A stretch of DNA of 47,715 nucleotides from an uncultured Lachnospiraceae bacterium (GTDB taxonomy: Bacteria; Bacillota; Clostridia; Lachnospirales; Lachnospiraceae): the NCBI GenBank assembly GCA_946614165.1, contig CAMOGQ010000007.1, positions 1 through 47,715 on the forward strand, written 5' to 3'. Positions 19,673 through 24,851 of this stretch are shown piece after piece. The notes under the pieces are model-generated. The model did no database searches, had not been told where the DNA came from, and saw nothing but the letters and a program-made list of their open reading frames with translations. Every line of letters begins with the position of its first letter. Positions within the stretch are counted from its first letter, which is position 1. The position numbers were made by a program, and so were the translations under genes.

Positions 19673-20023
19673 TTACCTGTATACGATGACGGCTGTCAGT
19701 TCCACGATGTCTTCCGTCTTATTGGCGATCCCGTGGCCCTCTCCCGCAGGGCAGATGGTCACATCTCCTGCCGTCACGGTCCGGATCTGGCCGTTGTCGT
19801 TGTATTCCGCGGTCCCCTTCATGATATAGAAGAGCTCGGCGTCCGTTTCATGCACATGATAGCCGATGCTGCAGCCGGGGTTTAAGGTGATCTTGGCGAA
19901 GAGCCTGCCCTTGCCGTTGAGCTCCTCCGGCCCGTTTATATAGTTGGTGATGACGACGACGCCGTCTCCCCCTCTCATATGTTCTCTGTATTCGATCCTG
20001 CAGTCTCTGGCACCTCTGATCAT
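19673..20023 (-). CDS. Cupin-domain protein
   Basis: A small beta-barrel protein of 116 residues. Start at the ATG at 20023, where GGGAGG lies at good spacing. Cupin motif 1 is GYHVHETDAELFYIMKG with His56, His58 and Glu63 as metal ligands. Motif 2 is CPAGEGHGI with His97. Single-domain cupins of this size act as metal-dependent isomerases or binding proteins; no specific reaction is shown. It heads the transcript with the PfkB kinase and is divergent from the Fe-ADH/TetR-PaaK pair, sharing the control region 20024-20304. Confidence 0.85.
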   Translation of the reverse strand: MIRGARDCRIEYREHMRGGDGVVVITNYINGPEELNGKGRLFAKITLNPGCSIGYHVHETDAELFYIMKGTAEYNDNGQIRTVTAGDVTICPAGEGHGIANKTEDIVELTAVIVYR

Positions 20024-20213
20024 ATCTGTTTCCTCCCTATAGACGATCATCCTTTCATCCCAGGCAGGCCCTGCGCCCGCCTTTGTTCTATTTTACCATA
20101 AGACAGGGAAAGACACGCATTCTTTTTGTCGTATATTCCTATTTTGCCGGTGATTTTTACTGTCTTTTCCCGCCTGCCTGATATCAAATCTGATAATACT
20201 CATTTGTGGCAAA

Positions 20214-20236
20214 GTATCGTAAAGTGTATCTGTAAA
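20214..20236 (+). promoter_or_regulatory. Direct repeat upstream of the Fe-ADH, candidate operator
   Basis: GTATC-GTAAA (20214-20223) is repeated as GTATCTGTAAA (20226-20236), start to start 12 bases. The second copy covers the expected -35 position of the promoter at 20254-20259. A regulator bound here would control the ADH and its coupled gene. Confidence 0.4.
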
Positions 20237-20253
20237 AGAAGGGCGGGGCATGT

Positions 20254-20259
20254 TACAAT
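20254..20259 (+). promoter_or_regulatory. Extended -10 of the Fe-ADH operon
   Basis: TACAAT preceded by TGT; the -35 (TGTAAA at 20231) is weak. Transcription would start about 40 bases before the ATG. Confidence 0.5.
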
Positions 20260-20304
20260 AGAAATGATGCTTTACATTATTACCGTATCCGAAAGGAGTC
20301 TGTC

Positions 20305-21429
20305 ATGTTCAAGAATTCATCTGCTTTCTATATGCCCACCCGTGTCTTTGAGGAGAAGGACGCGGTAAAGAACCATGTCCGGGAGCTTTCCGCTCTGGGA
20401 AGCAGGGCCCTGATCGTGACCGGCCGCCATTCCGCCATGGCCAACGGTTCCTGTAAGGACGTGACGGATGCCCTTGACAGCGCCGGGATCAGCCACGTTC
20501 TGTTCAATGAAGTGGAGGAAAATCCCTCTACCTATACCATCATGAAGGCCAGAGACCTGGGCGTTTCCGAAAAGGTGGATTTCGTCATCGGCATCGGGGG
20601 CGGCTCTCCCATGGACGCGGCCAAGGCCATTGCCCTCATGATCCGCAAGGCAGACAAAGACATTTCCTATTTATATAAGCCCGACGGGGATTCACTGACC
20701 CTTCCCGTTGCCGCCGTTCCCACCACCTGCGGCACCGGCTCCGAAGTCACAGGGGTCTCCGTACTGACAGATCCCGACAGGCAGATCAAAAAATCCATTC
20801 CCCACAAGATCTTTCCGGATCTGGCCCTGGTGGACGGCAGATATCTGAAATATGCCTCCGGAAAGATCCTGGCCAACACAGCCTTCGACGCCCTGACCCA
20901 CCTGGTGGAATCTTATCTGAACTCCAAGGCAAACGATTACAGCCGCATGTGCGTGGACGCAGGCCTGAAGGCCTGGGCAAAAAGCCTTGACATCCTCAAA
21001 GGGGAAAGAGAGCCCGGAGACGGGGATTACTACAACATGATGCTCGCTTCCAGCCTGGCGGGCATGGCCATCGCCCATACGGGGACCACCCTGCCCCACG
21101 GCCTCTCCTACTCCATGACCTACTTCCTCCATGTGCCCCACGGCAAGGCGACGGCCTACTTTACGGCAGGCTACCTGAGCGAGGCCCCCGAAAAGGACAG
21201 GGACTACCTGCTGCAGACGGCAGGCTTTTCCTCCGTTCAGGATTTCCAGAAGGTATACCGGAAGGCCTGCGGGCCTCTTGACGCTGAGGAAGACAAAGTC
21301 AGGGAAGTCCTGAAGAAGGCAGTCCTGGAAACAGGCACCAATCCCGCCAAGCTCGCCCTGGCTCCCTTCCCGGTGGACATGGCCATGCTGGAGCGCATCG
21401 CTTATTTCGAACTGGATTCAGAGGAATAA
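20305..21429 (+). CDS. Iron-containing alcohol dehydrogenase
   Basis: NAD(P)-dependent, metal-dependent group III alcohol dehydrogenase, 374 residues, cytoplasmic. The nucleotide-binding GGGSPMDAAKA is at 98-108 and PTTCGTGSEVT at 139-149. The metal ligands fit Asp195 and His199 (DALTH), His265 (LPHGLS) and His279 (VPHGKA). The ATG has AAGGAG nine bases upstream. It is followed after one base by the TetR-PaaK fusion gene, so the two are translationally coupled. Substrate is not shown; neighbours suggest a fermentation alcohol or an aldehyde connected with the carboxylic acid that the fusion might bind. It is distinct from the second Fe-ADH at 43083. Confidence 0.93.
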   Translation: MFKNSSAFYMPTRVFEEKDAVKNHVRELSALGSRALIVTGRHSAMANGSCKDVTDALDSAGISHVLFNEVEENPSTYTIMKARDLGVSEKVDFVIGIGGGSPMDAAKAIALMIRKADKDISYLYKPDGDSLTLPVAAVPTTCGTGSEVTGVSVLTDPDRQIKKSIPHKIFPDLALVDGRYLKYASGKILANTAFDALTHLVESYLNSKANDYSRMCVDAGLKAWAKSLDILKGEREPGDGDYYNMMLASSLAGMAIAHTGTTLPHGLSYSMTYFLHVPHGKATAYFTAGYLSEAPEKDRDYLLQTAGFSSVQDFQKVYRKACGPLDAEEDKVREVLKKAVLETGTNPAKLALAPFPVDMAMLERIAYFELDSEE

Positions 21430-21430
21430 A

Positions 21431-23029
21431 ATGTACAGAACATCAAGCGACAGACGTTTCTATAAAATAAAGAAAGATATCCGGGCGGCCTTTGTAAGGC
21501 TGGTGCTGGAGAAGGACCACTTCACGGATATCAGCATTACGGAAGTATCGGACCTGGCGGACATCAACCGCAAAACCTTTTATCTCCACTACGACGGCCT
21601 GGACGATATCCTGACAGAGTATGCCGACGACCTGGCGGAAGACCTGATGCAGTATCTCTACAAGGCCAGCTCCTTCTCCGTTGAGAACATCTTCGAGTGG
21701 ATGGATCTGCACAGTGACGAGCATCCCTTTGTTCGCAAGCTCTCCACCCAGGACAAGCTTCTGGTCTTCGACGGAAAATGCCGCAACACCCTGTTCGACT
21801 ACTTCCAGTCCTGCATGTTCACGGGAAAGAACATGTCCCCCGTGGAGATCCGCACCGTATCCAGCTATCTGTCCGCCGGCCTGACGGACGTGATGAAACA
21901 GTGGACCCTCTACGGCCAGACAGGAGACAGGGAGACGGTCATCCGCCAGACACGGGAGATCATGGAAAAGGGCCTGACAGGCCTGGCAAAGAAGCCCGCC
22001 GTCGGCGTGCCCGACAGATCCTATGAGGCGGACGCCCGCATGGAACATTTCAATACCATGCAGAACTATCTGTCCCTGGCCCGGGATCCGGTAAGCCCCA
22101 AGAACGTGAAGCAGATCACCGAGGTCCAAAGCAAAAGGATCCGGGAGCTGATGGAGGCCGCCTGGAATATCCCCTTCTATCACGAGCGCTTCCTGCAAAG
22201 CGGCACCAGGCCCTCGGACTATAAAAAGGCCGACGACCTCTACCGCTTCCCCGTCCTGACCAAGGAGGAGCTGCGCAGCTGGACCCGGGCGGAGCTGGAA
22301 TCCTCCCCGGACAAGTTCAGAAGCTGGCATTCCTATGCCACGTCCGGCTCCACAGGGGATCCTCTGGAGCTCGTGTTCTCTCCCAACGAGAACGCCTGGC
22401 TGACCGCCAACTGGCTCCGGGTCCTGGCCATGCCCGGCTACAATCCCTTTACCGGCAAGACCATGTCCCGCACCCTCCTGCCCAGAGAAAATGCCAGGGA
22501 TCTGGACTCCCTGGTCCAGCGCTTCGGCATTCTCCGCCGCAGGTCCATGTCCGACACGGTGGACCCCAAAGCCCTGGCGGAAGAGATCAACCGCTACCGG
22601 CCCGACTATCTCTACAACTACATGGATATCCTCCTGGCCATAGCCCGCTACGCAAAAGAAACCGGGACCGCCATCTGGCATCCCCAGTACTTTGCCCCCA
22701 CAGGCTTCCAGGTGGACAGTGAAGCCAGAGAGCTTCTGACCGATGTCTTCGGAGGGGGCCTTGTAGACACCTACGGCCTCATAGAGACCGGCGCCTGCGT
22801 CATCAAGCTGCCGGGCAAGAAATATTATCAGATCAACTCCGATACCCACGTGGTCAATACCTATACCCCGGACCTGACCGGCCCTTCCCTTTCGGGACAG
22901 GCCGTCATCACGCCCCTTTTCAAAACAGAAATGCCCATCATCAACTATATATCCGGAGACGGGATGGAGTCCTACATCAAACAGGGCATCCGCTTTATCC
23001 GGACCATTGACAGCCGGGCATTCAGCTGA
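21431..23029 (+). CDS. TetR-type DNA-binding domain fused to a PaaK/CapK-like adenylation domain
   Basis: A 532-residue single frame with two modules. Residues 1-190 are TetR/AcrR-like: helix-turn-helix SITEVSDLADINRKTFYLHY (35-54), then a helical ligand/dimer domain to about 185. Residues 200-532 match the N-terminal core of PaaK/CapK-type adenylate-forming enzymes: IRELMEAAWNIPFYHERF (237-254), PVLTKEELRSW (274-284), the ATP loop ATSGSTGDP (303-311), TYGLIETG (447-454) and NYISGDG (505-511). The protein stops just after that motif, so the C-terminal lid domain, with the lysine used in catalysis, is missing. It may bind a carboxylate, ATP or acyl-AMP as a signal rather than make CoA thioesters. 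It overlaps nothing but starts one base after the ADH. A terminator follows. Function is inference. Confidence 0.85.
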   Translation: MYRTSSDRRFYKIKKDIRAAFVRLVLEKDHFTDISITEVSDLADINRKTFYLHYDGLDDILTEYADDLAEDLMQYLYKASSFSVENIFEWMDLHSDEHPFVRKLSTQDKLLVFDGKCRNTLFDYFQSCMFTGKNMSPVEIRTVSSYLSAGLTDVMKQWTLYGQTGDRETVIRQTREIMEKGLTGLAKKPAVGVPDRSYEADARMEHFNTMQNYLSLARDPVSPKNVKQITEVQSKRIRELMEAAWNIPFYHERFLQSGTRPSDYKKADDLYRFPVLTKEELRSWTRAELESSPDKFRSWHSYATSGSTGDPLELVFSPNENAWLTANWLRVLAMPGYNPFTGKTMSRTLLPRENARDLDSLVQRFGILRRRSMSDTVDPKALAEEINRYRPDYLYNYMDILLAIARYAKETGTAIWHPQYFAPTGFQVDSEARELLTDVFGGGLVDTYGLIETGACVIKLPGKKYYQINSDTHVVNTYTPDLTGPSLSGQAVITPLFKTEMPIINYISGDGMESYIKQGIRFIRTIDSRAFS

Positions 23030-23070
23030 AAAGGGCCCGGAATATAAAAACCGGACCCTTTGGAAATTTT
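23030..23070 (+). terminator. Intrinsic terminator after the TetR-PaaK fusion gene
   Basis: AAAGGGCCCGG pairs with CCGGACCCTTT (one mismatch) around a ten-base loop, followed by GGAAATTTTTT. It directly follows the stop codon and separates lctP from the ADH operon. Confidence 0.85.
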
Positions 23071-23084
23071 TTATTACTCAAATG

Positions 23085-23113
23085 TTGATTTATGCGTAAA
23101 TGTGTCTTATTAT
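23085..23113 (+). promoter_or_regulatory. Promoter of lctP
   Basis: TTGATT (23085-23090), 17-base spacer, TATTAT (23108-23113), about 38 bases before the ATG. Confidence 0.65.
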
Positions 23114-23150: not shown

Positions 23151-24851
23151 ATGTACGCACTGATCGCATCCCTTCCCATACTTACGACCATTATCCTCAT
23201 GGTATTCTTCGGCTGGTCCGCCAAGAAAGCCCTGCCTCTGGCCTGGGCCATGGCCGCCGTCATCGGAATCACCATCTGGAAGATGCCGGTCCTGGAGATC
23301 GCCGCCAGGACCATTTCCGGCTTTATGGGCGCTTTCGAGACCATCTGCATCATCTTCGGAGCCATCCTTCTGATGAACGTCATGAAGAACTCCGGTGCCA
23401 TGGTCACCATCAATCACATCTTTTCGGACATTACCAGGGACGCCAGGATCCAGGCCGTGATCATCGGCTACCTCTTCGGCGGCTTCATCGAAGGCGTGGC
23501 GGGTTTCGGCACGCCGGCCGCTCTGGGCGCTCCCATCCTGATCAGCCTGGGCTTCCCGCCTCTGGCGGCAGCCAGCGTCTGCCTGGTCTATAACTCCACC
23601 CCTGTCTGTCCCGGTCCCGTGGGCGTTCCCACTCTGACCGCCTCCAGCGTGGTCAAATCCGCCGTGGTGGCTCTGGGCCAGGATCCCGACCGCTTTACCC
23701 GTCAGCTGACCGTCTATACCTGCGTTCCCCACATGATCGGCGGCGTGGCCGTCATCATCATGGGCGTGGCCGTCCTGTGCAAGGTCTTCGGCAAGAACAA
23801 GTCCTTTAAGGATGTCATTCCGGCCCTTCCCTTCTGCCTCTTTACCGGCGCTGTCCTGGGAACCATCTACATCGGCATGGCCTTCCTGGCCGGTCCCGAG
23901 CTGGTCTGCATGACCGCTTTCGGCGGTACCCTGGTCATCTCCATCATCGCAGCCAGAAAGGGCTTCCTGATGCCCAAGGAATGCTGGACCTTCGAAGGCG
24001 TGGAACAGTGGGGTGACGACGCCTGGCAGTCCACCGGCAAGGTCCGCGCAGCCAGGGAAAGGCACGTGAGGATCCGCTATACCCTCCTGCCCTACCTGAT
24101 CATCTGCATCATCCTCTTCCTGACCAGAGTGGACGCCTTCGGCATCAAGTCCATCCTGAACTCCGATCCCTTTATTCTCCATATCCATAACATCCTGGGC
24201 TTCGAGGATATTAACTGGGATTTCAAGTTCCTGTACAACCCGGGCATCGTGCCCTTCATGATCGTGGCCTTCTTCACCCTCTTTGAGCAGAAGGTATCCA
24301 GAAAGTATGCCAAGATCGCCGTCTGGGATTCCCTCAACATGATCTCCGGCGCTGCCTTCGCCCTGCTCTTCGGCGTGGCCATGGTCAACATCTACCGCTA
24401 TACCGCAAATGACGCCATCGGTGCGGCCATCGCCTCCACCTCCGGCGTCTCCGGCTCCTACGGAGGATCCAGCATGCTCTTTGCCATGGCCCAGGCCATC
24501 GGCGGCATCTTCTCCCACGTATATGTCTTCATCGCACCCTTCATCGGTGTCCTGGGCGCTTTCATGTCCGGTTCCTGCACGGTCTCCAACACTCTGTTCG
24601 CAGGTCTGCAGTTCGAGATCGCCACGGTCCTGGGCCTGCCCCAGCTGATCATCGTGGCCCTCCAGAACATGGGCGGTGCCATCGGAAACATGATCTGCAT
24701 CAACAACATTGTTGCCGTCGGCGCCACCACGGGCACCAACGGCAACGAAGGCCGGATCATCCGGACAAATATTATTCCCTGCCTGACCTATGCGGCCATC
24801 GTGGCTGTCTTAGGCGCGGTCATGATCAGCATGGGCCTCGGCCGGTTCTGA
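23151..24851 (+). CDS. lctP: L-lactate permease (LctP family)
   Basis: Lactate (and glycolate) proton symporter of the LctP/LldP family, 566 residues with about 13-14 membrane helices. Diagnostic parts are [21 protein letters not shown] near 104-124, [15 protein letters not shown] at 144-158, and near the end [20 protein letters not shown] and [28 protein letters not shown] lies seven bases before the ATG. It has its own promoter (23085-23113) and is monocistronic: its stop is directly followed by the stop of the converging polyphosphate kinase gene, and a terminator for it lies inside that gene (24883-24926). It imports lactate for oxidation or exports it during fermentation. Confidence 0.94.

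Follow-up and report, generated by a model that had tools for sequence, protein, structure and literature searches.

A predicted one-component regulator in Lachnospiraceae that joins a TetR-like module to a lid-less PaaK-type ligase core

The present study concerns a gene in a 47,715-nucleotide stretch of DNA (hereafter, the window) from contig CAMOGQ010000007.1 of an uncultured, gut-type Lachnospiraceae bacterium, whose draft genome (G000) comprises 3.78 Mb in 288 contigs. In this gene, a TetR-like DNA-binding half and the core of a PaaK-like adenylate-forming ligase are encoded in a single frame, which ends where the C-terminal lid of the enzyme would begin (Table 1). Herein, we propose that the product is a one-component regulator derived from a duplicated ligase, in which the core reads the substrate or product of that ligase and controls the genes for uptake and activation, a reading that we consider probable, if by no means assured. 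A first-pass annotation of this DNA had supposed that the sensor was recruited from a carboxylate-activating enzyme, and this idea is strengthened by predicted operators located before genes for full-length paralogues of the core and on a permease promoter.

Both halves of the protein were recognised by motif and fold. The N-terminal half is an all-helical unit containing a TetR-type helix-turn-helix (HTH), followed by a helical domain, and the C-terminal half is an ANL N-terminal domain with the P-loop, A5 and A7 motifs of PaaK-like ligases. The matches of the single protein to library models all fell below their cut-offs, including a DVU_1553-type AMP ligase (E 5.9e-17), PaaK (E 3.4e-10) and the DhaS-type TetR model TIGR02366 (E 6e-6, with 26 bits where the cut-off is 129). 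Pfam TetR_N gave no match at E 1 in the window protein, the gathering score not being reached, and was matched at E 0.01 in two of six fused members (best E 0.0037); the N-terminal half is called TetR-like because of its fold match. A profile of a 34-row alignment, in which unfused TetRs and ligases are included and raise the match of their respective halves, recovered PaaK1 at 6.8e-77 and the TetR structures 3kkc, 4mk6 and 2iu5. In a structure model (pLDDT 84.7, pTM 0.62), the TetR fold expected by the first-pass annotation is seen through residue 184 and an ANL N-domain from approximately residue 217, and the structural alignment of the model to PaaK1 ends at residue 329 of 425 of the latter, the lid boundary.

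The fusion was observed in 6 of 62 genomes of the genus (G000, G019, G057, G043, G047 and G033) and in one locus from another collection (L049), that is, in seven Lachnospiraceae-type genomes. Among 397 sampled genomes of the family and 391 of the class, searches in which at most three candidates were scored per genome for nearly all rows shown, it was found in the window's own genome only. Two peptide patterns of the fused N-terminus were scanned against genome_contigs, a set described as covering 84,980 species, and returned six loci, five from genomes already known to have the fusion and the new L049. Six named records contain the gene, five of them Lachnospiraceae assemblies and the sixth labelled Ruminococcus; three of these six have RUG isolate names, which presumably stand for rumen. 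The fused frames are open at about 60-95% identity in all seven genomes, and neither a joining of two genes by sequencing error nor a stop between the halves, both of which were looked for, was found. In the six proteins whose 3' end is visible (the G033 gene is cut by its contig end), the lid is lacking and the frame stops within six residues of Arg529, and the architecture originally described for the window alone is thus confirmed. In a core tree of 45 of the 75 matching frames, fragments and near-copies being left out, the fused cores group together as a single clade (SH-aLRT 96) next to unfused relatives, and the species that bear the fusion may themselves be one clade. A 590-aa frame in G037 (L078) was rejected as a further fusion, since the N-terminal part overlaps the upstream gene's frame.

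Comparison of promoters provided a predicted operator pattern, TACWCANNTGTKG. The source promoters were those of the alcohol dehydrogenase (ADH)-fusion operon and the permease in the window and those of the fusion and the permease in G043, and the pattern was fixed before its matches 5' of unlinked full-length ligases (G043 C3 and G047 C146) were seen. The strict site has three matches in the window's own genome, two of which, at 20197 and 23075, are the only ones in the window; none of 100 shuffles reached two (shuffle mean 0.02). Across the six fusion genomes, 18 strict matches were observed versus three for the reversed control pattern, and ten of the 18 are located at regulator, permease or ligase promoters (three in G043, two each in G000 and G033, and one each in G019, G057 and G047). 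Seven of the other eight are in open frames of at least 190 aa and one is intergenic (G043 C17), although location in an open frame is a weak filter for off-targets, as the ligase site of G047 is itself inside a 96-aa frame. The intergenic match (L190 3810-3822) was seen by eye to lie approximately 270 bp 5' of a GlmS-like frame. A bit-score matrix gave no site of 14.1 bits or more, the lowest best site among the fusion-genome promoters, in any of the 36 unfused ligase loci scanned; its background was drawn partly from loci with true sites, and the 99% level was therefore not used.

Two of the predicted sites, neither used to build the pattern nor linked to the fusion, precede full-length PaaK-like ligase frames, at 163 bp in G043 (C3:23721) and 134 bp in G047 (C146:3993). 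By our own arithmetic, with the few other matches placed at random in 2.5 Mb, the chance of a match within 300 bp 5' of one named gene is about 1 in 2000 for G043 and 1 in 4000 for G047. In addition, when the G043 ligase promoter is aligned with six permease promoters, a common block of 46 columns is seen, of which 26 are invariant. In G000, G019 and G057, a one-letter variant, TACACGTTTGTGG, is located 44, 45 and 56 bp, respectively, 5' of an operon encoding an ATP-grasp protein (with an LAL_C2 domain in G000) and a PaaK-like ligase; as this variant departs from the pattern and the relaxed pattern is not enriched, its weight derives from its place and its conservation in three species. A full-length paralogue is thus a predicted target in five of the six fusion genomes, and no full-length ligase paralogue at E 1e-40 or better was detected in the G033 draft. 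The predicted regulon, in other words, includes an enzyme paralogous to the sensor core. The ATP-grasp (LAL_C2) and ligase pair of the window's own genome is located on C121 (L043 5234-7725), with the full-length ligase paralogue at C121 6430-7725, and similar pairs were noted in L007, L041, L042, L054, L058, L059 and L061. By eye, the site-bearing ligase gene of G043 is divergent from a cluster resembling 2-oxoacid:ferredoxin oxidoreductase (L034 9222-9779).

The regulator and permease promoters carry similar sites. The AAATGT of the permease operator is repeated 18 bp on (23080 and 23098), and two sites 18 bp apart are present in the G043 fusion promoter. In the genomes with a solitary fusion gene (G043, G033 and G047), a site is present in the promoter of that gene, and in L049 a strict site is found both 5' of the fusion frame and 65 bp 5' of the permease frame. 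A site over the -35 box with a repeat in the spacer, as predicted for the permease and G043 ligase promoters, makes repression relieved by ligand the likelier mode, and the permease-promoter geometry would suit paired binding. The promoter-like site at the permease is one of three in that region, where 2.3 are expected by chance. The permease frame itself starts 121 bp 3' of the fusion frame, and its orthologue, at 77% identity or more, is present in exactly the six fusion genomes of the 62 (next best 51%). The stretch at 20024-20304, named in the first-pass annotation as DNA that the protein might bind, does contain a predicted operator (20197-20209). A cupin gene (19673-20050) is divergent from the ADH-fusion operon, and the 20197 site, in the shared intergenic stretch, might serve both. 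The LctP-type permeases of unfused genomes (L155, L157, L158, L159, L160 and L161) share another promoter element, TTGTATTTGTGCA; an ATTTGTG element in the permease promoters of unfused genomes differs in sequence from the operator and was not counted as one.

Several observations weigh against this account of the DNA site and regulon, which are computed predictions. The pattern was read by eye from four of the promoters that it explains, and a de novo motif test on four regions was weak, with shuffles performing as well in 6 of 100 cases for 12-mers, 39 for 10-mers and 83 for 8-mers. The site is one letter off the strict pattern at the G019 ADH-fusion promoter, at the G047 permease promoter (TACCCATTTGTTG) and at the G000, G019 and G057 ligase promoters, two letters off at the G057 ADH-fusion promoter and three at the G047 fusion promoter. 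A relaxed pattern covering the ligase site of the window's own genome was not enriched (30 matches in G000 versus 25 for the control), and the matrix was built on seven of the scored sites, which makes the scores of those seven circular in part. Over longer stretches, a match of 14.2 bits was found in one unfused genome, approximately 5.9 kb 5' of its ligase (L036 2081), and the promoter scan found no clear promoter-like match over the 20197 site. Finally, as the fusion genomes may be one clade, the co-occurrence of the permease is confounded by descent.

The Fe-type ADH encoded upstream was considered as a fixed partner and rejected. It adjoins the fusion in three of the six fusion genomes searched only, and where it is unlinked its promoter showed no site, by scoring in G043 and G047 and on reading in G033. 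The ADH is present at 69% identity or more in exactly the six fusion genomes of the 62 (next best 58%), a co-occurrence that may result from descent alone. The first-pass annotation had expected the sensed acid to match the alcohol or aldehyde of this enzyme; this expectation is not supported, because in three of the six genomes the ADH is unlinked and without a site, and the acid therefore need not match either compound.

To describe how the regulator might work, we hypothesize the following steps. TetR proteins are dimers, and the N-terminal module, perhaps DhaS-like, would dimerise and bind TACWCANNTGTKG or near variants. The sensor would correspond to the N-domain of a ligase of the PaaK kind, acid:CoA or acid:acceptor, with its fold and most of its pocket kept and the lid, the hinge and the A4 Glu lost, presumably with catalysis. 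This core would bind the substrate (or the adenylate or CoA product) of the paralogous ligase, since the predicted regulon comprises a transporter and the full-length paralogue. A ligand-driven change in the core dimer would then reset the spacing of the two HTHs in one symmetric dimer, given that two-fold dimers are formed by TetR modules and also by the N-domains of PaaK, and the ligand would relieve repression of the permease and ligase genes. The ligand is perhaps a small carboxylate and, if the LctP-type transporter is any guide, a 2-hydroxy acid. The stronger statement, that a duplicated ligase copy became the sensor of its own regulator and that the state of its pocket, conveyed along a shared dimer axis, controls the transporter and the intact twin, stands in our judgement evenly between right and wrong; if true, the protein would be the first transcription sensor on the ANL fold known to us.

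The core might instead pair with subunits of the full-length ligase and thereby read the amount of (idle) enzyme, and some enzymes dock with their regulators in this way. The conservation of the core is consistent with such docking, as is the predicted control of a full-length paralogue in most fusion genomes, and according to PMC8388817, PaaK N-domains need to dimerise, the P-loop being isolated in the single domain, a dimerisation also described in PMC4432964, on atrophied AMP-binding domains. However, the target paralogues of G000, G019, G057 and G047 are 43-45% identical to the fused core, which is far for shared dimers, and the G033 draft lacks such a paralogue at the threshold given above; we judge docking unlikely.

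With regard to the regulator proposed here, the residues of the core indicate what was lost and what was retained. Two comparisons were made, one of 7 fused, 26 close unfused and 3 remote proteins and one of six of the seven fused proteins (without that of G033) against 32 unfused. At the A4 position (426), which aligns with the Glu in the GAEPW stretch of PaaK1, Glu is present in 32 of 32 unfused PaaK-like proteins and is replaced by Phe, Ser, Tyr, Gly or Ala in the seven fused. The A10 Lys with the lid and the hinge Gly are absent in all six fused proteins with a visible end; the unfused relatives are mostly 430-510 aa long, and the lid and NGK motif are present in 26 of the 26 close ones compared. 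Of 25 residues invariant in the 32 unfused proteins, five are changed among the six complete fused proteins (Glu426 and Gly528 in every one, Arg282 and Pro293 in two, and Ser305 in one), whereas other clades tested in the same way differ at 0 to 3. By the standard of close relatives, the changes fall on the P-loop (305, 307 and 311), A4 (426) and the hinge (528), among others, and in G047 the P-loop reads TAGVTG, with Ser replaced by Ala and by Val. In PMC8388817, the P-loop contacts of PaaK1 are Ser94, Thr96 and Thr97, A7 Asp and A8 Arg contact ribose, A5 Tyr is named for 4-chlorobenzoate:CoA ligase, and A10 Lys serves adenylation. The three PaaK1 residues align to residues 305, 307 and 308 of the window protein (with an inferred five-residue offset), two of which are the Ala and Val of G047, and the A5 Tyr-Gly-x-x-Glu, A7 Asp and A8 Arg are retained in the fused core. 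From the loss of the A4 Glu, the hinge and the lid with its A10 Lys, catalysis is very likely gone; as the A5, A7 and A8 residues remain, the pocket is likely retained. As counterweights, 20 of the 25 universal PaaK residues are kept in all six fused members compared, and relative to close relatives the number of changed invariant residues in the fused clade (10/56) is not unusual (4/50, 12/58, 13/59 and 7/53 in other clades), so that the fused core may still bind nucleotide or be active.

Residual activity would allow a reading in which the core still makes an acyl-adenylate, without a lid or with one supplied in trans, and the held adenylate is the signal, as biotinoyl-AMP is in BirA. Nevertheless, with the A4 Glu lost in seven of seven, the hinge Gly in all six visible cases and the A10 Lys absent, and with both P-loop Ser replaced in G047, we regard this reading as quite improbable.

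Selective constraint along the protein was compared in six of the seven fused genes (G033 left out). Over all distant pairs, identity is 73-85% in the HTH, 33-47% in the helical domain and 67-71% in the core, and the window protein compared with its distant relatives gives 80-81%, 35-39% and 67-68%, respectively; the enzyme core is thus the most conserved part after the HTH. The ratio of nonsynonymous to synonymous substitution rates (dN/dS) in distant pairs, where dS is near saturation, is 0.20-0.42 in the core versus 0.50-0.90 in the helical domain, and that of the HTH is below 0.12 in eight of the nine distant pairs where it could be computed. These values bear on a rival reading in which sensing resides in the helical domain, the usual arrangement for a TetR protein, and the core is a passenger that is passive or stabilises the protein. 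In its favour, the structure model shows an entire TetR half, but a passenger is not expected to be more constrained than the sensor and the observed pattern is the reverse, which leaves this reading highly doubtful. A decaying or mis-assembled gene, to which the missing lid and some lost catalytic residues might point, is refuted by open frames in seven genomes (one cut by the contig end), a conserved stop position in the other six and purifying selection in the six compared, and is almost certainly not the explanation.

The origin of the proposed regulator was also considered. In sister species (L019, L038, L040 and others), a TetR gene is divergent from a full-length PaaK-like ligase gene; the same ligase family thus stands beside a TetR, as in the fusion, but the ligase is unfused and complete with its lid, unlike the fusion core. 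A direct fusion of such a divergent pair (a Rosetta-stone story) was rejected, as the TetR tree is against it (AU p 0.0009); a constraint that unites the fused TetRs with the neighbouring ones is worse by 23.1 log units, although long branches are involved. As the TetR that neighbours the unfused ligases is not sister to the fused one, TetRs may have become associated with this ligase family on two occasions. A palindrome-like element, CCCCATGTGTGGA, is conserved between those divergent pairs at nine loci (L019, L020 and L079-L085) and is close in sequence to the site of the fused regulator; its position there would fit two such events. In another group of species, a small HTH-looking protein (TKAEILKRVILSQYKSVRxFAVEMDIPYSTLVTALERG, by eye) is encoded just 5' of the unfused ligase (L035 7581-7997, L036 7448-7945, L012 932-1351 and L017 2548-2898) and would represent a third regulator type next to this family of ligases; its L036 copy gave no Pfam match. 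The unfused ligase of G035 is split into two overlapping frames (L047 5515-6890), by a frameshift or an assembly error. In the window, an inverted repeat, AAGGGCCCGG...CCGGACCCTT, with a T-rich tail was seen by eye 3' of the fusion gene (23030-23075); it is absent from the output of the terminator scan, which was restricted to short loops.

Table 1. Positions in the window of the fusion gene, its parts, the neighbouring genes and the predicted control sites
Feature	Position	Strand	Remark
TetR / lid-less PaaK-like core fusion gene, 532 aa	21431..23029	+	single intact frame
TetR-fold half, aa 1-185; HTH at about aa 36-53, ending in DINRKTFYLHYD (aa 44-55)	21431..21985	+	
Linker, aa 186-206	21986..22048	+	length varies among species (alignment); model pLDDT <50 at aa 185-194
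PaaK-like N-terminal (adenylation) domain without lid, aa 207-532	22049..23026	+	
P-loop ATSGSTGDP, aa 303-311	22337..22363	+	partly degenerate among fused members
Codon 426 (Phe), A4 Glu position of unfused proteins	22706..22708	+	
A5 motif TYGLIE, aa 447-452	22769..22786	+	Tyr-Gly-x-x-Glu kept
A7 motif NYISGDG, aa 505-511	22943..22963	+	kept
SRAFS-stop, frame end at A8 hinge	23012..23029	+	no lid, no A10 Lys
Fe-type alcohol dehydrogenase	20305..21429	+	ends one base 5' of fusion, same strand
LctP-family (lactate-permease type) transporter, predicted target	23151..24851	+	Pfam Lactate_perm E 6.9e-88
Predicted operator TACTCATTTGTGG	20197..20209	+	95 bp 5' of Fe-type ADH start codon
Predicted operator TACTCAAATGTTG	23075..23087	+	overlaps permease -35 hexamer
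Permease promoter-like site TTGATT-17-TATTAT	23085..23113	+	conserved in promoter alignment

If the proposed regulator is real, it would illustrate how specificity can arise in a single step when a regulator takes over the pocket of its target enzyme, and the large ANL fold would join the sensor domains and could provide a modular acid biosensor. The computed regulon (transporter, ligase and regulator) is directly testable, and an unannotated group of Lachnospiraceae ligases is linked to a transporter and a predicted control site. No TetR-PaaK fusion was found among the titles and abstract openings of the matches listed from the open-licence PMC literature.

Among known systems, the DhaS-DhaQ pair of the Lactococcus dihydroxyacetone operon, in which the TetR-type DhaS works with DhaQ, a sensor paralogous to an enzyme, is the closest working parallel. 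In six of six members the TetR half of the fusion has a match to the DhaS model, far below the cut-off of that model, and the profile that includes unfused TetRs matches the DhaS-type structures 4mk6 and 2iu5. Both systems combine a TetR-type module, in the fusion perhaps of the DhaS kind, with a sensor paralogous to the controlled enzyme (as predicted here), whereas the sensor is a separate DhaK-like protein in the one and an ANL/PaaK core on the same chain in the other. The PaaK-type phenylacetate:CoA ligases (2y27 and 2y4n) and 2-hydroxyisobutyryl-CoA ligase (6hdw) share the N-domain fold, P-loop, A5 and A7 with the fusion, which differs from them by the added TetR module and by the lack of the lid, the A10 Lys and the A4 Glu. 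EhpF (3hgv), an ANL protein without a lid, is biosynthetic and, unlike the fusion, has no DNA-binding module. Finally, BirA and the MocR-type regulators are also one-chain transcription regulators with an enzyme-fold sensor, but with winged-helix DNA-binding modules and other enzyme folds.
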